DNA of 35,498 bases, taken from assembly GCA_937921995.1 (NCBI GenBank), contig CAKZVF010000102.1:1-35498 (forward strand), given 5' to 3'. Below are positions 22,395-30,571 of the stretch, piece after piece (position 1 is the stretch's first letter; each line of letters begins with the position of its first letter). Origin of the DNA: an uncultured Pirellulaceae bacterium (GTDB lineage Bacteria; Planctomycetota; Planctomycetia; Pirellulales; Pirellulaceae). The notes below the pieces were generated by a model, which made no database searches, was not told the origin of the DNA, and saw only the letters and a list, made by a program, of their open reading frames with translations. The translations under genes were made by a program, and so were the position numbers.

Positions 22395-25300
22395 ATGAGA
22401 CCGATCGCATCGCTGCGTTGCCGTTTGCTGTTCCGCTGTCTAGTTATCGGGACCATCGCCTTGGCATGTGGTGTCCAAGACAGCCGTCGTTCACAGGCTC
22501 AAGAATCAGAATTTCAAAGCCTGTTCAATGGGAAAGACTTGGAAGGTTGGAAGGGAGCCGAGTCGCTGTGGGCGGTGTCTGAGGGAACCATCGTTGGACA
22601 GACCACCAAGGAAGCTCCGATCACCGCCAATACATTTTTGGTGTGGCAGGGTGGCGAGGTTGCCGATTTTGAGTTTCGCTGCAAGGTTCGGTTCCATGGC
22701 GTGAACTCCGGCGTGCAGTATCGAAGCAGTTTGGCCAAAGAGAAAAATTTCGCACTCAAAGGCTATCAAGCCGACCTGCATCCGCGTCCAGACTATATGG
22801 GGATGCTTTACAGCGAGGGCACCGGGCGCGGCATCATTGCCACCGGTGGTCAGAAGGTCGTCATTCCCAAAAAAGGAAAGAAAGAAGTCGTCGATCAACT
22901 GGTTCCGCTGAAAGATCCCGTCGCCACTGAGTGGAATGATCTTCGCATTGTCGCCGTCGGCAATCGTTTGATCCATTCAGTTAACGGCACCACCGTTGTC
23001 GATGTGACAGACAAACATGCCGATGCGCTCAGTCAGGGATTGTTGGGGTTGCAACTGCATCGGGGCGGTCCAATGAAGGCCGAATTTAAAGATCTGCAGT
23101 TGCGTCGGCTTGCTGGTGAGGAGGCCCAACGGACGTTGGCCGAAGCGGAGGCAGCGACCCAAACCGTTGCTTTAAATAAGAAGGAAGCATACAAAAAGAC
23201 AAAAGCCGAAGCGGATGGTGCGGGCATCGTCGCACTACCCGGATTCGTTGTGGAGAAAGTCTACTCCGTCCCCAAAGAGCAAGGTAGTTGGGTGTCATTA
23301 TGCTCGGACCCGCAAGGACGACTGTACGCGTGCGATCAAGCAGACGCGGGACTGTTTCGACTGACGCTGCGCGATCCGCAACCACCGCTGGTCGAAAAAA
23401 TCTCAACTGGGAAGCTCGCTAAATTTTCTAGCGCCCAAGGACTGCACTGGGCGTTCGACAGTCTGTGGTTCCATCGCAACGGCGGCAACCTATTTCGTCT
23501 GACCGACACCGACGGTGACGATATGCTTGACACCGCGGAGACGATTCCCGGTGGCAAAGGCGGCGGCGAACATGGCAATCATGCGGTGCTCACCACCGAA
23601 GACGGCAAAGCGCTTTATCTTGACGGCGGTAACGCTGCGCCGCTGGCGGAAACGACCGGAGATCGAGTCCCAACCTGGAGCGAGGGATTGCTGTTGCCGC
23701 GGATGTGGGACGCCCGTGGGCACGCGCGTGGGCGGATGGCTCCCGGTGGCTGGATTACACGATTGAATATCGAAACCAAACAACAATCACTCTTTTCCAT
23801 GGGCTATCGAAATCAGTTTGACATTGCACTGAATCGGCATGGAGACCTGTTCACGTACGACGCCGACATGGAGTGGGATATGGGGGTGCCGTGGTATCGT
23901 CCGACCCGCATTTGTTTCGCCGCCAGCGGGTCAGACTACGGGTGGCGGAGCGGTTCGGGCAAGTGGCCCACTTACTACGAGGAATCGTTGCCACCGGTGG
24001 TTGAGATCGGGCCGGGATCGCCGACGGGTTTGATTTCAGGAGCCAAAGCAGCGTTCCCAACGAAATACAAGGACGCAATCTTCGCGCTCGATTGGACCTT
24101 TGGAACGATGTACGCGATTCATCTGGTCCCCGATGGAGCCGGATATCGCGGCGAAGCGGAACAGTTTCTCTACGGTACGCCGCTGCCGTTGGTGGACGCC
24201 GAAATCGGCAAAGATGGAGCGATGTACTTCACTGTCGGAGGACGCAATGCCGAATCGTCGTTGTACCGCGTTCGATACACCGGCACCGAATCGCAAGAAG
24301 CTCCATCGCGTGTGAATGCTGATTATGTTGCCGCGCGAAGCAAACGCAGAATGCTTGAATCGTTTCATGGCGTTGAAGCCCCCGAGGCCATTTCGGCGGC
24401 TTGGCCGTTGCTTTCGAGCAAGGACCGGTTTATGCGTCATGCGGCGCGGATCGCGATCGAAAGTCAGCCGGTCGAATCTTGGGCTGACAAAATTCCAGCC
24501 GAATCCGATCCGCAAACGCGTATTACTGCATCGGTTGCATTGGCACGGATGGGAGAAGCAAAACATCAGCCTCAGTTGATCGATGGGCTGGTGGCGATGG
24601 ACGTGGCGGCGATCGAGGATTCGCAATTGTTGGGATTGCTCCGGGCTTACGCTTTGACGTTTATCGAACTGGAAAAACCAAACGACGACCAACGGGCGAA
24701 AGTAGTAGCTCAGCTGAGCCCGTTGTTGCCCAGTGACAATTTTGACGTCAACACAGAATTGATTCGCGTACTGACCTACCTCCAAGACGAAACGCTCGCC
24801 AATAAAGTCCTTGCCCTGATCGCCAACCGATCCGCACCGGTGCCTCCGCAGTGGTCGGAACTGGCCAAACGCAGCAAGCAATACGGCCCGGAGGTGCAGA
24901 AAATGATCGACAACCACCCTCCGACGCGCGAGCTGATGTATGCGTTCATGTTGCGAAACCTGAATGTGGGCTGGACGTTGGAAGATCGACGATCCTATTT
25001 CGAATTTTTAAATCAAGCGGTTCAGGCGTCCGGCGGATCCAGCTACAGCGGATTCCTATCCAGGATTCGTGACGAAGCGTTGGCGACGATGCCAGATGAC
25101 GCAAGAATCGCGTTAAAGGATGTCACCGGAAAGGACTTCAATCCCGAACCCGATTTTCCCATTGTTGAACCTCAAGGCCCCGGTCAGCAGTGGAGCGTGC
25201 AAACCGCGATGGCCGCCAATGGGAAAAAGGATTTTGAAGTTGGACGTTCTCTGTACTTCAGCGCAAAATGTGCCGCTTGCCATCGTTTGAACGGGCTTGG

Positions 25301-25667
25301 CGGCGGCGTTGGCCCCAACCTAACCAGTGTTCGAAACAAGTTCGACAAAAAGTATTTGGTCGAAGCGATCGTCCATCCCAGTCAGCACATCTCCGACCAA
25401 TACAGTTCTTCGATGGTGCTGACTGATGAAGGAGAAGTCCTGACGGGCTTGGTGATCGAACAAGAGAACGGCGACTTACTGGTGTATCCGGTCGACGAGA
25501 ATGCCGGTTCTGTCGTTGTGCCGGCCGACAGTGTGGAAGAGGTCAAAGAATCAAAGGTATCGCAGATGCCAGAAGGATTGCTTGATAAATTGAACGCATC
25601 GGAGGTCAACAACCTGTTGTCGTACATTTTGGCCGGCGGCGATCCTGAGGATAAGGTTTACAAATAG
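22395..25667 (+). CDS. Secreted DUF1080 / PVC-type dehydrogenase / cytochrome c fusion protein
   Basis: The ATG at 22395 gives 1090 residues. Order of parts: a signal peptide (about 1-38, with hydrophobic LVIGTIALACGV); a DUF1080 (3-keto-disaccharide hydrolase-type) domain, about 40-240, with SLFNGKDLEGWKG, FHGVNSGVQYRSS and WNDLRIVAVGNRL; a short Ala/Lys-rich helix; a beta-propeller of the PVC-type membrane-bound dehydrogenase/sorbosone-dehydrogenase class (about 275-640, with GYRNQFDIALNRHGDLFTYD and YGWRSGSGKWP); a helical, HEAT-like region; and a C-terminal heme c domain with C959-A-A-C-H followed by GGGVGPNLTSV, of the planctomycete heme-binding type. Such proteins are exported and likely oxidise or process sugars at the cell surface, passing electrons to the heme. 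A strong hairpin precedes the gene. Confidence 0.88.
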   Translation: MRPIASLRCRLLFRCLVIGTIALACGVQDSRRSQAQESEFQSLFNGKDLEGWKGAESLWAVSEGTIVGQTTKEAPITANTFLVWQGGEVADFEFRCKVRFHGVNSGVQYRSSLAKEKNFALKGYQADLHPRPDYMGMLYSEGTGRGIIATGGQKVVIPKKGKKEVVDQLVPLKDPVATEWNDLRIVAVGNRLIHSVNGTTVVDVTDKHADALSQGLLGLQLHRGGPMKAEFKDLQLRRLAGEEAQRTLAEAEAATQTVALNKKEAYKKTKAEADGAGIVALPGFVVEKVYSVPKEQGSWVSLCSDPQGRLYACDQADAGLFRLTLRDPQPPLVEKISTGKLAKFSSAQGLHWAFDSLWFHRNGGNLFRLTDTDGDDMLDTAETIPGGKGGGEHGNHAVLTTEDGKALYLDGGNAAPLAETTGDRVPTWSEGLLLPRMWDARGHARGRMAPGGWITRLNIETKQQSLFSMGYRNQFDIALNRHGDLFTYDADMEWDMGVPWYRPTRICFAASGSDYGWRSGSGKWPTYYEESLPPVVEIGPGSPTGLISGAKAAFPTKYKDAIFALDWTFGTMYAIHLVPDGAGYRGEAEQFLYGTPLPLVDAEIGKDGAMYFTVGGRNAESSLYRVRYTGTESQEAPSRVNADYVAARSKRRMLESFHGVEAPEAISAAWPLLSSKDRFMRHAARIAIESQPVESWADKIPAESDPQTRITASVALARMGEAKHQPQLIDGLVAMDVAAIEDSQLLGLLRAYALTFIELEKPNDDQRAKVVAQLSPLLPSDNFDVNTELIRVLTYLQDETLANKVLALIANRSAPVPPQWSELAKRSKQYGPEVQKMIDNHPPTRELMYAFMLRNLNVGWTLEDRRSYFEFLNQAVQASGGSSYSGFLSRIRDEALATMPDDARIALKDVTGKDFNPEPDFPIVEPQGPGQQWSVQTAMAANGKKDFEVGRSLYFSAKCAACHRLNGLGGGVGPNLTSVRNKFDKKYLVEAIVHPSQHISDQYSSSMVLTDEGEVLTGLVIEQENGDLLVYPVDENAGSVVVPADSVEEVKESKVSQMPEGLLDKLNASEVNNLLSYILAGGDPEDKVYK

Positions 25668-25901
25668 GTCTGGTGATCCCGTTGGCAAAGAAGAGCGGCC
25701 CTTCGGTTGATTGAAGAGGCTTGTCGAAACAACCCATTCGACTCCTTCACCTTTTTCCTCTTCTTTTTTTTCCGCTGCACAAATGTAAAGAAATTCACGG
25801 AGCGACTCATCCGTTAAAAGACAATAGAACTGGTGAAACTGACCGTGTCTTCAACAATGACAAGGAGTACAATAGGGTTGTTATCTACAGGAGACATTTA
25901 A

Positions 25902-26141
25902 ATGAATTGGCGCGAACATATCACGGTTGATCCGGCCATCTGCCACGGCAAGGCTTGCATCAAAGGAACCCGAGTCATGGCATCGGTCGTGCTGGACAAC
26001 TTGGCCCAAGGGGCCAGTGTCGAAGACGTACTGGCCAGCTATCCATCACTGACTCGTGAAGGAATTATGGCGGCAATGGGGTACGCGGCCGATCTTTCGC
26101 GCGAACGTACCGTTGATCTGTCGCCGACCGGTCTGGGCTAA
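25902..26141 (+). CDS. DUF433 antitoxin-like protein
   Basis: The 79 residues match DUF433: ITVDPAICHGKACIKGTRV near the N-terminus, then a helix-turn-helix-like part (LDNLAQGASVEDVLASYPSL followed by TREGIMAAMGYAADLSRE). Such proteins are usually the DNA-binding antitoxin of a pair with a DUF5615 protein. A clear AGGAGA lies 8 bases before the ATG. The stop codon overlaps the next start (TAATG), so the two proteins are translated as a coupled pair. Autoregulation of the operon is expected from the family; the operator is not obvious. Confidence 0.85.
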   Translation: MNWREHITVDPAICHGKACIKGTRVMASVVLDNLAQGASVEDVLASYPSLTREGIMAAMGYAADLSRERTVDLSPTGLG

Positions 26142-26494
26142 TGGCAAAGCTCAAGGTTGAGGAGAACTTGGCGGCTGAGGTTACAACGCTGTTGAAGGAT
26201 GCTGGTCACGATGCCATGTCAATCCACGATCAGAACATGGTCGGTTGTACCGATGACCACATCGCTTCTGTCTGTCAAATGGAAGAACGCGCGATTGTGA
26301 CGCTTGACTTGGATTTCTCTGACATTCGATCCTATCCGCCAGAAGATCATTGCGGCATCGTTATGCGTCCTGAAAAACATGATCAAGCAAGCGTACTGGA
26401 GGTTCTGACGAAGCTGATTCCCAAGCTCGATGATGAGCCGCTGGAGGGAAAACTTTGGATCGTCAATCGCCGTACCATTCGCATTCGCAGTTAG
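26141..26494 (+). CDS. DUF5615 PIN-like toxin
   Basis: The 117 residues fit the DUF5615 PIN-like fold. An N-terminal acidic motif, KVEENLAAEV, replaces the usual DENLP. A second acidic part follows: GHDAMSIHDQNMVGCTDDHI, and then AIVTLDLDFSDIRSYPPEDH, where D-D-F supplies metal-binding acids. PIN-like toxins are metal-dependent RNases, but activity of this subfamily is mostly inferred. It starts inside the TAATG overlap with the DUF433 gene. The pair sits alone between the DUF1080 gene and a minus-strand sugar operon. The first acidic residue is Glu rather than Asp, which may or may not keep activity. Confidence 0.82.
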   Translation: MAKLKVEENLAAEVTTLLKDAGHDAMSIHDQNMVGCTDDHIASVCQMEERAIVTLDLDFSDIRSYPPEDHCGIVMRPEKHDQASVLEVLTKLIPKLDDEPLEGKLWIVNRRTIRIRS

Positions 26495-26665
26495 TCTTCA
26501 ATCAAGACAAGGTTCCAAGAAACAAAAAAGCAAGAAAATAGGCTAGGCTTGGTACTGCGTCCCTTTTCGTTGCACATCAGATAGAAGAGATGCGGGCTAA
26601 GCAGCGGAAAAAAAATTCCAAAGCGGTGCAGGAGAACCGCACTCCAAAGTTGGATGCCAGCGAAG

Positions 26666-27670
26666 CTACACCAAACCACGGGCAACCAGATTATTCAACC
26701 GTCGCCCCACGTCGGCCAGTCCATCCAACACCAGTTCGTCGTAGGTTCGGCCGTCGCGCGTGTCGATGCCGTGGTTGGGATCGGCGGTTCTTAGGCCTAC
26801 CAGCGCGTCGTCTTCATGGTGAAAGGCTTCCACGAATACCGTTTCCAAGCTGCCCGTTTTTGCACAGGCGGCCAGTAAAGCGCTGATCCAGCCATCGTCG
26901 GTTGTTAAGCAGCCACGTGTTGTCCTGGCCGAGGCATGGAAGATTCCCAGCTCTCCGGCGTCGGCGATTTGAGCGATCAGTGCTTGGTTTTCAGAGATAG
27001 TCAGACCAGAATCGCCGCAGTGGGCCGCATCGACCAGAACTTTGAATAGGTTCCGGCCAAGGGATCGATTTGCCGCGGCAACAAACTCCCAACAGCGGCC
27101 AATGTCGGTGAAGGTTTGATACTCGATGCCTCGGAGAAATTCGATATGCCATGAAGGGATCTTGGTGACGCCCGATTCGATGAAAGCGCGGGTATGAACT
27201 TTCACATTCTGAGCAATCGCGGCGTCGAAGTCTGCGCCGTCTTTACGTGTGGCTCCCTCCTGCATCCAGACCTCCAGCGACGGGGAAGAGAAGGTTGCGA
27301 TTCCATGTTGCTCAGCAGATCGCAAACCCTCAATCAGGATCGCCACGACGGTGTCTTCATCGTCGGGGTTCATAGGGTCAACGTTGCCGATCATCATGAC
27401 AAAGTGCACCGTTAGGCCAAGTGCCTTCAACCCTTTGACCATTTCGGCGACGTCATTAGGGTCCAGCCCCGGAAAAATGGGGACTTGGACGCAATCAATT
27501 CGCACCAGCGATCTAGAACACAGCCTTTGCATCGCGGCGACGACGATTAAATCTCCGTCGGGATCGCGCGGAAGGCGTCCTTTCTCTGGAACCAATCCGC
27601 CAACGAATTTGATGTGACATGGTACGACGCCCAGCTGGATCTTTGATTTTGATTCGATCGCAAATGTCAT
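26666..27670 (-). CDS. Xylose-isomerase-like TIM-barrel protein, unknown substrate
   Basis: The ATG at 27670 gives 334 residues starting MTFAIESKSKIQLGVVPCHI; a longer in-frame start adds 26 residues that read into a repeat element and are rejected. Segments fit a TIM barrel of the AP-endonuclease-2/xylose-isomerase type: VPCHIKFVGG, CVQVPIFPGLDPNDV, LTVHFVMMIGN, ATFSSPSLEVWM, IPSWHIEFLRG, VLVDAAHCGDSG and VFVEAFHHEDD near the C-terminus. Acids and histidines occur at strand ends as in metal-dependent sugar isomerases, but I cannot align all ligands. Its neighbours on the same strand are a Gfo/Idh/MocA oxidoreductase and a clearer isomerase-like protein, so it likely acts on the same sugar or polyol. 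Family assignment is less certain than for the 29109-30134 protein. Confidence 0.6.
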   Translation of the reverse strand: MTFAIESKSKIQLGVVPCHIKFVGGLVPEKGRLPRDPDGDLIVVAAMQRLCSRSLVRIDCVQVPIFPGLDPNDVAEMVKGLKALGLTVHFVMMIGNVDPMNPDDEDTVVAILIEGLRSAEQHGIATFSSPSLEVWMQEGATRKDGADFDAAIAQNVKVHTRAFIESGVTKIPSWHIEFLRGIEYQTFTDIGRCWEFVAAANRSLGRNLFKVLVDAAHCGDSGLTISENQALIAQIADAGELGIFHASARTTRGCLTTDDGWISALLAACAKTGSLETVFVEAFHHEDDALVGLRTADPNHGIDTRDGRTYDELVLDGLADVGRRLNNLVARGLV

Positions 27671-27713
27671 GATTTCGTTGGGGACTGTTAGGATTGGTTG
27701 TTGGATCGTGGCC

Positions 27714-27804
27714 GGTAGTGGACGAGGCCACGAGTCCGGCGCTTCCATTAACCTTTGATGGATCGGTTAATGCCGCCGCAGGATTCGTTGCCTCATCCAA
27801 TACC
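27714..27804. repeat. Palindromic repeat element, 91 bp
   Basis: The outer arms are 27 bp each (27714-27740, and 27778-27804 in reverse) and match at 22 of 27 positions; both begin with GGTAGTGGACGAGG or a close variant. An inner perfect pair CATTAACC (27746-27753) and GGTTAATG (27765-27772) lies between them. The whole would fold into one long hairpin. A third copy of the arm lies at 30545-30571. It sits between the Gfo/Idh and TIM-barrel genes and might also act as a processing or termination structure. Confidence 0.75.
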
Positions 27805-27826
27805 ATGAAATTGAGGCATAGCCGCA

Positions 27827-28960
27827 CTAGACGTCTTGCCAGGTTTTATCAGCGGCGCTCTTGAGTACCGCATCGCAGACCATTTGGGTTTCCAGTGCCT
27901 CGCGGAAGGTTGGGCTGGCTGGTTTGCCCTCTTCGAGTCCCTTGAGGAAATCGGCCACTTGATGCACAAACGAGTGCTCGTAACCGATGTTCAAACCCGG
28001 CACCCACCAATTGCCCATGTAGGGATGATCACCGTCGGAGACGTGAATGCTCTGCCAGCCCCGCATCGGACCTTCGACCGCATGATCAAAAAATTCAAGC
28101 CGATGAAGATCGTGCAGATCCCACTTCAGCGACCCATGTTCGCCGTTGATCTCAAACGTGTAGAGTGCCTTGTGGCCGCGCGCGTAACGGGTCGATTCAA
28201 ACAATCCCAGCGACCCATTCTCGAAACGACACATAAACGTACAAGCGTCGTCGATGGTGACTTTTTGGACTTGGCCGGTTTCGCTGTGCATGCGTTCTTT
28301 AATAAACGTCTCCGTCATGCCGCTCACGTTGGCAATGCTGCCGTTGAGCCACAGCGCGGTGTCGATGCAGTGGGCCAGCAAGTCTCCCGTCACGCCGCTG
28401 CCGGCAGCATCGGCATCCAATCGCCACAGCGCGGCGCCGCCTTGGGGTAAATCCTCAGAGATCGTCCAGTCCTGCAGGAAATTGGCGCGGTAGTGGAAGA
28501 TCTTGCCAAGCTTCCCGCTGTCGATAATGTTTTTAGCATGCGTCACCGCGGGCACTCGCCGGTAGTTGTACCAAACCATATTCGCGACGCCGGCGGCTTC
28601 GACCGCTTCGCACATTTCTTCGCCCTGGGCGACATCCATGGCGATCGGTTTTTCGCACAAGATCATTTTCCCCGCGGCCGCGGCGGCAATCGAAATCTCT
28701 TTGTGTAAATTATTGGGCACGCAAATATCAACGGCATCAATGTCATCGCGCGCGATCAGTTTCTTCCAGTCCGTTTCGATGGATTCATAGCCCCAGTTGT
28801 CGGCGAACTGCTGAGCCAGCTCCGCGTTGCGACCGCAGACGGCTTTGAGCACCGGTTTGTGCTCAAGGTCAAAGAAGTTGTTCACCGTCACGTAGGCATT
28901 GGTGTGGGCCTTGCCCATGAACCCGTAACCGATGAGGCCAATGTTAAGTGGCTTTTTCAC
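27827..28960 (-). CDS. Gfo/Idh/MocA-family oxidoreductase
   Basis: An NAD(P)-dependent enzyme family acting on sugars, polyols and glycosides. The 377 residues start at a GTG with AAAGGGAT upstream. The Rossmann fold begins [18 protein letters not shown] (Gly-x-Gly-x-x-Gly), the catalytic Lys lies in CEKPIAMD (E103-K104-P105), and the substrate-side acid/His pair lies in [10 protein letters not shown] (D193, H197). The C-terminal beta-sheet half follows, with [18 protein letters not shown]. No signal peptide is present, so it acts in the cytoplasm. It lies between two TIM-barrel isomerase-like genes on the same strand. Known relatives oxidise inositols, glucose derivatives or whole glycosides at C3; the precise substrate is open. 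Confidence 0.9.
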
Positions 28961-29014
28961 TGATGATCCCTTTGTGTTTTTGTCTTTGAAAGTTTTGTTT
29001 TACTTTGCGTCGGT

Positions 29015-29083
29015 CCGGTTCCCACCGGCCGCGCGGGTAATTGAGACGATGGTTTAAGGAGCGGCTTGGCCGGTGGAAACCGG
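29015..29083. repeat. Inverted repeat between two sugar-metabolism genes
   Basis: CCGGTTYCCACCGGCC occurs at 29015-29030 and, reversed, at 29068-29083 with one mismatch. Each arm is itself a small hairpin (for example GGCCGGT-GGAA-ACCGGCC at 29068-29085). The sequence GGCTTGGCCGGTGG at 29063 recurs at 2032. The element follows the stop of the isomerase-like gene and precedes the Gfo/Idh start, so it may weaken or process the shared transcript. Confidence 0.6.
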
Positions 29084-29108
29084 CCCTGCAACTAATACGG
29101 CGCTTGAA

Positions 29109-30134
29109 TTAAACCTGACTGTGCGCATCCCGGACGTGCAGCATCGTGCCAAGGATCGCTTCCCAAGTCGAAGCCTGTTCCAACATTTCATTGGGGAACA
29201 TGCACCCGTCCCAACAAATATGTTCGATACCACGCTCGCTGGCATCTTTGAGCCAGTACTGAGCACACTTCACGATGTCCAGTTTTCCGTTGGGATCATC
29301 CGGCGCACAATGCTTACCCGTTTTGTCGTGGCTGCCCGCACCGAACACGTTTCCATCGTTCTGGGCCACATGGAAGTCGATCGTCCAGGGACGCAGTTTA
29401 TCAGTCATCGACTTATACGCCTCCCAGAATTGTTCTTCGGAATAGCCCTCTTCCAGCAGCGCGTGTTCGGCTGCGTTGTAGCCCATCAGGTAAAGATAGG
29501 TATGAGCAAGGTCGGCTTGAAATCCGACGGTCTCGGGCATGCCGACCTCTTCCAATAGGTCCAACATGTCCTTCCACGAGTGCATGCCCGCCCAACAAAT
29601 CTCGCCCTCGGCTGCCAATCGCTGCCCGTTATCAGCCGCGATCTTGGCCGCCTCACGAAACGTTTTGGCGATTTTTGTCGTGTTGGCTTTCGCATCGGCG
29701 CGCCATTTCTCGACGCCAAACTCGGCGGAATCAATTCGTATGACTCCATACTTCCGGACGCCATGCTCGGACAATACTTTGGCGACACGACACGCCTTTT
29801 CGATGGCCAATAGAAATTTGTCCGTGGCTTCCTTGTCCCCCATCGCACTATCACCGACCGTTCCCGGCCAAACGGGGGCAACCAACGAACCGACCGATAG
29901 ATTCCGGCCGGCGATCGAATCTGCGACAGCCTTAAGTTCGTCATCGGTGGCATCGGGATGCGTGTGCGGTGCAAATAGAAACAGATCGACGCCGTCAAAC
30001 TTGTGCCCGTTGACTTCCGCTGCGGTGGTCAGGTCCAGCATGCGATCCAAACCGATCGGCGGTTCCTGCCCTTCGTCGTCTCCTTTGCCGACGACACCGG
30101 GCCACATCGCGTTGTGAATTTTTAGAGCCGTCAT
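29109..30134 (-). CDS. Sugar phosphate isomerase/epimerase-like TIM-barrel protein
   Basis: With the ATG at 30134 the protein is 341 residues; an in-frame extension adds 34 residues without pattern. It fits the xylose-isomerase-like TIM-barrel family, whose members isomerise or epimerise sugars and polyols with a divalent metal. The opening [18 protein letters not shown] and the likely metal-site segments [41 protein letters not shown] and [12 protein letters not shown] place Glu, Asp and His residues at strand ends. [21 protein letters not shown] fits the loop near the substrate. It precedes the Gfo/Idh gene on the same strand, with an inverted repeat between. No signal peptide is seen, so it is cytoplasmic. 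The substrate is not known. Confidence 0.82.
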
Positions 30135-30544: not shown

Positions 30545-30571
30545 GCCGGATTCGTTGCCTCATCCGCTACC
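30545..30571. repeat. Third copy of the 27-bp repeat arm
   Basis: Read on the minus strand this begins GGTAGCGGATGAGG and agrees with the arm at 27714-27740 in 23 of 27 positions. No partner arm is seen nearby. It overlaps the last three codons and the stop of the ankyrin-repeat gene. Confidence 0.75.

Follow-up and report, generated by a model that had tools for sequence, protein, structure and literature searches.

We analyzed a gene for a DUF1080-propeller-heme c fusion protein, P0001, and the three genes that lie next to it, in a stretch of 35,498 nucleotides (the window; contig CAKZVF010000102.1 of assembly GCA_937921995.1) from an uncultured Pirellulaceae bacterium. P0001 (22389-25667, + strand; 1092 aa, with an in-frame ATG at 22395) is followed by the trio P0004-P0003-P0002 (30236-26666, - strand), which encodes a TIM barrel, a Gfo/Idh protein and a second TIM barrel. 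A sequence-only reading of this DNA had described the same anatomy and had proposed a set that oxidizes a glycoside outside the cytoplasm before the bond is cut. Domain searches confirmed the anatomy; overall, the earlier interpretation is partly supported, and a route that oxidizes the sugar before the bond is cut is plausible.

Domain organization of P0001

P0001 consists of a DUF1080 domain, a partial TIGR02604 beta-propeller, a HEAT-like stretch and a CxxCH heme-c domain, in this order. The DUF1080 domain (PF06439, residues 41-239, 22509-23105, + strand) scored 115.6 bits against a curated Pfam cut-off of 26.8 and belongs to the family. The sequence-only reading had raised the question of its active-site residues; in an alignment of 35 rows (34 from three genomes, plus P0001), P0001 retained 18/18 of the columns conserved at 75% or more, among which the catalytic ones are not told apart. 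The propeller (residues 347-614, 23427-24230, + strand) gave a partial match to the PVC-type model TIGR02604 and missed its cut-off (68.2 vs 122.2 bits). A PDB profile search with the propeller returned a sole, weak match, the putative oxidoreductase 2ism (E 0.14), centred on a conserved G-x-R-N stretch that presumably has a cofactor role. The heme-c domain (25230-25628, + strand) passed the cut-off of the PVC-type model TIGR02603 (92.4 vs 68.15 bits), with its CxxCH motif present as CAACH at 25269-25283. In the alignment of homologues the heme residues C961, C964 and H965 were invariant, as was Met1060 (25566-25568). A hydrophobic N-terminal leader was seen by eye, and P0001 is probably exported.

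The fusion of DUF1080 to a heme-c propeller was found in P0001 and in four homologues. Its closest orthologues (in G048, G069 and G181, all of one genus) share 57% identity with P0001 from propeller to heme and carry the same DUF1080 head. DUF1080 was present in 80/80 planctomycete genomes searched, with 4 to at least 37 matches per genome (17 in the window's genome), and TIGR02603-type heme domains over the cut-off numbered 4 in the window's genome and 26 in G121.

Features of the three proteins of the trio

P0003 (27827-28960, - strand) is a Gfo/Idh/MocA dehydrogenase that resembles levoglucosan dehydrogenase. Its nearest NCBIfam model is levoglucosan dehydrogenase LgdA, yet it stays below the equivalog cut-off (330.9 vs 650 bits), and it misses both Bacteroides-type models by far (28.1 vs 750 bits for BT_2158, 33.5 vs 650 for BT_2159). 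The second PDB match was 6a3f, a levoglucosan dehydrogenase structure, and inositol dehydrogenase models and PDB entries were matched as well. Since P0003 begins directly with the Rossmann fold, with no leader peptide visible by eye, it is probably a cytoplasmic NAD-type enzyme. P0003 is then probably no part of an extracytoplasmic set, and the genes are probably split between compartments.

P0004 (29109-30236, - strand; likely start at 30134, M35) is a xylose-isomerase-like TIM barrel that passed the PF01261 cut-off (47.7 vs 31.1 bits). P0002 (26666-27748, - strand; likely start M28, 27667) is a ketose-3-epimerase-like TIM barrel that neither PF01261 nor any other Pfam model catches. A structure model of P0002 displayed this fold with metal-type residues: E203, D240, H271 and E307 are placed at the ends of strands 5 to 8 or close to them, and are invariant in 41 sequences, P0002 included. 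In O- and C-glycoside eliminases (OGE and CGE), a catalytic His is described two residues after the strand-5 metal ligand (PMC10628242). P0002 has Leu205 at this position, two residues past E203. In P0004, Glu212 stands two residues after E210; the placement on strand 5 is inferred from a poor structure model (pLDDT 56.8), and P0004 also seems to lack the eliminase His. With Leu205, P0002 does not look like such an eliminase, and with Glu212, P0004 seems not to either. PDB sequence searches with P0004, with P0002 and with a P0004 profile gave nothing useful, and a PHROGs search led nowhere.

Conservation of the P0004-P0003 pair

P0004 was found at E ≤1e-30 in 281/397 genomes of the class; in a phylum-wide sample it matched 30/199 genomes at E ≤0.001, of which 21 were strong (E 1e-59 or better). 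We compared 82 P0004 loci, the window and 81 from relatives, which were picked among the listed matches, for the most part with a single locus per genus (80 of the genomes span 66 genera; L180 and L181 are near-identical); L049, L050, G069 and the split match of G129 were left out of the count. In 65/82 loci P0003 lay downstream of P0004, no more than 2 kb away and with the same orientation, and several of the 17 loci lacking it stop at a contig edge (L037, L186). In G198, homologues of P0004 and P0003 share one open frame of 765 aa (L036, 7938-10235), with two DUF1080 genes 6-7.6 kb away.

Upstream of P0004, on the same strand and within 2 kb, a cupin-like protein of about 400 residues was encoded in 48/82 loci, and together with P0003 in 43. 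No Pfam family was found for this gene. We regard its product as a putative isomerase-like cupin, on account of a weak mannose-6-phosphate isomerase match given by one such protein (15.4 vs 116.2 bits) and of an HHMH motif. A DUF4432 protein was encoded upstream in 21/82 loci, on the opposite strand in 20 of them.

A second TIM barrel occurred in 6/82 loci, downstream on the same strand in 5, and P0002 holds a place comparable to these proteins. The one in G266 is closest to a D-psicose 3-epimerase model (165.5 vs 300 bits). P0002 itself is rare in planctomycetes (strong matches in 7/397 genomes of the class, its own included) and common in Verrucomicrobia: among 44 fetched P0002 loci, 2 were Pirellulaceae by title and the remainder Verrucomicrobia and their kin. 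On one Verrucomicrobiaceae contig, homologues of P0002, P0004, the cupin and P0003 all lie on the same strand, and on another those of P0002 and P0004 do so. In the remaining 42 loci, often short ones, there was no P0004 and no close P0003; three had only distant Gfo/Idh-like matches. P0004 was present in 5/6 of the other genomes with a strong P0002 match, which says little: a meaningful co-occurrence of the two in planctomycetes was rejected, since P0004 is in 281/397 genomes anyway.

Two further observations were made at these loci. A GreA-like protein (named by eye; Pfam assigns the L040 neighbour to GreA) is encoded downstream of P0004-P0003 on the same strand in 29/82 loci. In L050 (6604-10046) and L049 (8013-9995), P0003 homologues (60-61%) adjoin a TIM barrel that is 28-29% identical to P0004, and L050 also carries the cupin (66%). 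In G016 and G030, P0004 has possibly been replaced by another TIM barrel.

DUF1080 and heme-propeller genes near P0004 in relatives

In G254, G266 and G281, three genera of one family (f83), genes for the cupin, P0004, P0003 and a DUF1080 protein lie on one strand, and the DUF1080 proteins bear an N-terminal leader (by eye). The order in G266 is cupin, P0004, P0003, D-psicose-3-epimerase-like TIM barrel, DUF1080 and a Gfo/Idh protein with a Tat-type leader (by eye); G281 has the same order without the second TIM barrel, and the G254 cluster runs from cupin to DUF1080. The nearest NCBIfam model of the Tat-type proteins of G266 and G281 is BT_2158_fam, below its cut-off (118-129 vs 750 bits). 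One-strand clusters of this family occupy L246 2309-8994 (identical to L219 from 7409; with the second TIM barrel) and L247 1933-7530; a HEAT-repeat protein comes after the Tat-type Gfo/Idh in both. The combination of families on which the proposed oxidize-then-cleave set was based is thus real in some relatives, although P0003 is not of the Bacteroides type.

Heme-propeller genes were also found beside the pair. In G174, one strand carries the cupin gene together with genes for a heme-propeller (41% to P0001) and a DUF1080 protein, divergent from a DeoR regulator (assigned by Pfam), P0004 and P0003. In G097, of the same genus, a stop-interrupted heme-propeller gene adjoins P0004-P0003, and DUF1080 is absent. 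Two lineages, the window and the G097/G174 genus, thus have a P0001-like propeller beside P0004, which is suggestive of a link and no proof of it. A DUF1080 of the P0001 subfamily stands next to a heme-propeller gene in G174 and in G121, where it directly precedes a distant one (25%). In G121, DUF1080 was found within 6 kb of 5/26 heme domains vs 1.6 expected at random (P 0.02, with the lengths of four contigs estimated). Two more proteins were noted near the pair: in L046 (10297-14877) a 1526-aa protein with ThuA, DUF1080, laminin-G-like, cytochrome c and DUF6797 parts lies on the opposite strand directly after P0003, and L048 encodes a weak DUF1080-like protein that falls short of the domain limit used for the count.

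A DUF1080 domain was found within 8 kb of P0004 in 10/82 loci vs 5.1 expected from mean density (Poisson P 0.036), a density that uses counts which are partly "at least" values. As evidence by itself, this proximity was rejected: with 4 to at least 37 DUF1080 per genome, the excess is small. In a maximum-likelihood tree, the DUF1080 of P0001 grouped with those of three fused homologues with full support. A 14-row clade joined these four rows, the fourth fused homologue, 7/11 linked DUF1080s and 2/34 background ones, with support of 83/97, under the starred level of the tree tool (95/80). Most background rows were the 30 top-scoring DUF1080 loci from three genomes, together with one neighbour, and one of the two background members in the clade is the G121 DUF1080 that directly precedes a heme-propeller gene. 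Fisher tests for the linked DUF1080s in this clade gave 0.0002 by row, where the f83 loci are related to one another, 0.008 by lineage, and 0.028 with one doubtful row removed.

Other elements of the window

Between P0001 and the trio lie genes for a DUF433 protein (79 aa, 25902-26141, + strand) and, with a one-base overlap with its stop, for a DUF5615 protein (117 aa, 26141-26494, + strand; by Pfam). They resemble a toxin-antitoxin type pair and probably stand outside the sugar route. Between P0003 and the likely start of P0002, an imperfect palindrome of about 90 bases (27714-27804; z -4.64 for 27705-27815) is a dispersed repeat-like element, with a half copy at 30548-30565 and one further match on a different contig of this genome (L080). 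Promoter and terminator scans did not rise above shuffles. Upstream of P0001, 11394-22223 encodes a polysaccharide synthesis and export set: a glycosyltransferase, a Wzz-like protein, Poly_export (- strand), a sugar transferase, a flippase, a sulfotransferase and an O-antigen-ligase/glycosyltransferase fusion. Adjoining P0004, 30560-32527 encodes an ankyrin-repeat protein and a GHL15 (hypothetical glycosyl hydrolase) protein.

A possible two-compartment route and its alternatives

As P0002 lacks the eliminase His and P0004 seems to lack it too, the DUF1080 domain would be the better candidate if a glycosidic bond is cut. Together with the probably cytoplasmic location of P0003, this leads to a two-compartment oxidize-then-cleave route, with a heme-c propeller in place of an NAD-type exported oxidase, which we put forward tentatively as the best of the readings and to which we give somewhat less than an even chance. 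Outside the cytoplasm, the P0001 propeller would oxidize a sugar or glycoside, the heme c of P0001 would take up the electrons, and the DUF1080 domain would cut the oxidized (3-keto) glycoside. Once inside the cell, the freed keto-sugar would be rearranged by P0004 and P0002, as metal-dependent isomerase- or epimerase-type TIM barrels, and reduced by P0003, as an NAD-linked Gfo/Idh enzyme, to give a usable hexose. A bolder version is quite unlikely in our estimation: P0001 and its fused orthologues would be single-chain, respiration-coupled glycoside-cleaving enzymes that feed a cytoplasmic keto-sugar module common in the class. Within one chain, the propeller would oxidize the sugar ring, heme c would deliver the electrons to the respiratory chain and DUF1080 would cut the weakened bond. 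The P0001 type would then take the role that an exported Gfo/Idh of the NAD type, found alongside a related DUF1080, would have in the f83 clusters.

The two-compartment route draws support from the f83 and G174 clusters, from the P0004-P0003 fusion of G198 with its DUF1080 genes a few kb away, from the 14-row DUF1080 clade, from DUF1080 and heme-propeller being fused or adjacent, and from the published accounts of Lac161_ORF7, of the Caulobacter route and of BT2158 described below. Several observations weigh against it. P0001 (+) converges on the trio (-) and no shared transcript is shown, with the DUF433-DUF5615 pair and the palindromic element breaking up the stretch; as the sequence-only reading had already said, a single operon is not shown. 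The comparison of neighbourhoods that it had suggested upheld the P0004-P0003 pair and the f83 clusters with DUF1080, and failed for the closest P0001 orthologues, which in G048, G069 and G181 lie megabases away from P0004 amid other genes. The f83 clusters count as about one event, because all three come from one family, and the neighbouring heme-propellers of G097 and G174 themselves lack a DUF1080 domain. The excess of DUF1080 near P0004 is weak, as the expected number is a lower bound, which makes the P of 0.036 optimistic; within 2.5 kb there were 4 loci vs 1.7 expected (P 0.095), and TIGR02603-type heme domains lay within 8 kb of P0004 in just 4/82 loci. P0002 adjoins P0004 or P0003 in 2/44 of its loci and in 0/6 planctomycete ones. 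The cupin is absent from the window, the rest of the genome not having been searched for it. The sole PDB match, 2ism, does not establish that the propeller holds a quinone cofactor.

P0001 may stand beside the trio by chance, and two alternatives make use of this. A possible but doubtful one is that two independent units lie side by side, P0001 and a self-contained, cytoplasmic, NAD-linked P0004-P0003(-P0002) route of the levoglucosan (LgdA/LgdB) or O-/C-glycoside-eliminase kind, in which the Gfo/Idh and TIM-barrel proteins would carry out oxidation, elimination and hydration without DUF1080. The 17 DUF1080 matches in the genome make P0001 one of many, its closest orthologues are unlinked to P0004, and P0003 has levoglucosan dehydrogenase as its best NCBIfam model and 6a3f as its second PDB match. 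Moreover, operons are known in which Gfo/Idh or another oxidoreductase is encoded together with two TIM-barrel proteins (PMC7676230, PMC10628242). However, P0003 misses the LgdA cut-off, Leu205 of P0002 and Glu212 of P0004 (its strand placement inferred) stand where the eliminase His is expected, and clusters of relatives contain DUF1080.

We consider it unlikely that P0004-P0003 and the cupin form a catabolic module for free sugars or cyclitols that involves no glycoside cleavage, with P0001 unrelated. The presence of P0004 in 281/397 genomes fits a general function better than a specialized route for glycans, P0003 matches inositol dehydrogenases, P0002 and the second TIM barrel of G266 resemble ketose 3-epimerases, and the DUF4432 protein upstream in 21 loci also points this way. 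Such a module would not account for the DUF1080 and the BT2158-like Gfo/Idh in the f83 clusters, nor explain why linked DUF1080s gather together in the tree.

Planctomycetes have many DUF1080 proteins and some have many heme domains of the P0001 type, mostly of unknown role. If oxidation and cleavage are indeed fused in one exported chain, this would suggest a function for these proteins and add to the ways in which glycosidic bonds are known to be broken. In the literature surveyed, we recognized no DUF1080-heme c fusion and found no report of 3-dehydrogenases with cytochrome c in planctomycetes. A study of Verrucomicrobia describes a similar, not identical, class of planctomycete-specific cytochromes as having wholly unknown functions and as apparently paralleling glycoside hydrolases (PMC5615132). 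Concrete targets for a test are offered by the f83 clusters and by the P0004-P0003 pair, which is common in the class.

Comparison with known systems

Known routes of this kind are described as oxidizing the sugar at C3, cutting the bond by beta-elimination or hydrolysis, and then hydrating and reducing the product (PMC7676230, PMC10066097, PMC10628242, PMC9007349, PMC11300592). The levoglucosan operon LgdA/LgdB1/LgdB2/LgdC unites Gfo/Idh with two sugar-isomerase-type TIM barrels, as in the trio, a likeness at the level of families (PMC7676230, PMC10066097); unlike that operon, the trio has no second Gfo/Idh, and P0003 stays under the LgdA cut-off. LgdA is reported to be faster in the reducing direction (PMC7676230), the direction that P0003 would take in the two-compartment route.

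The propeller-HEAT-heme order of the C-terminal 800 residues of P0001 recurs in Lac161_ORF7 of Verrucomicrobia (GenBank AGW45552; TIGR02604-HEAT-CxxCH), the two being likened by domain order alone; unlike in P0001, no DUF1080 domain is reported in the account of that protein (PMC5342196). Purified Lac161_ORF7 freed glucose from lactose, a result read out with a glucose oxidase kit in an account that tests no oxidative mechanism (PMC5342196). For Caulobacter, a periplasmic route through 3-keto-lactose has been proposed that pairs DUF1080 with LacABC and has two sugar epimerases and a reductase close by (PMC9007349). That route and ours would have in common oxidation outside the cytoplasm, cleavage by DUF1080, and epimerases and a reductase. 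Unlike in Caulobacter, the candidate oxidase here is of the propeller-heme type and shares a chain with the cleaver; LacABC homologues were not noticed in the window, in which no search aimed at LacABC was made.

In Bacteroides thetaiotaomicron, BT2156, which we take to be a TIM-barrel protein, opens the set BT2156-BT2159. There the same families occur together, with DUF1080 as BT2157 and Gfo/Idh as BT2158 and BT2159 (PMC9007349, PMC11300592, PMC12385236), and BT2158 is termed a periplasmic glycoside 3-dehydrogenase (PMC11300592). The window differs in that P0003 is LgdA-like, not of the BT2158 or BT2159 type, and in that its DUF1080 forms one protein with a propeller and heme c. The f83 relatives come closer to the Bacteroides route, with a Gfo/Idh protein that is BT2158-like, below the model cut-off, and carries a Tat-type leader.

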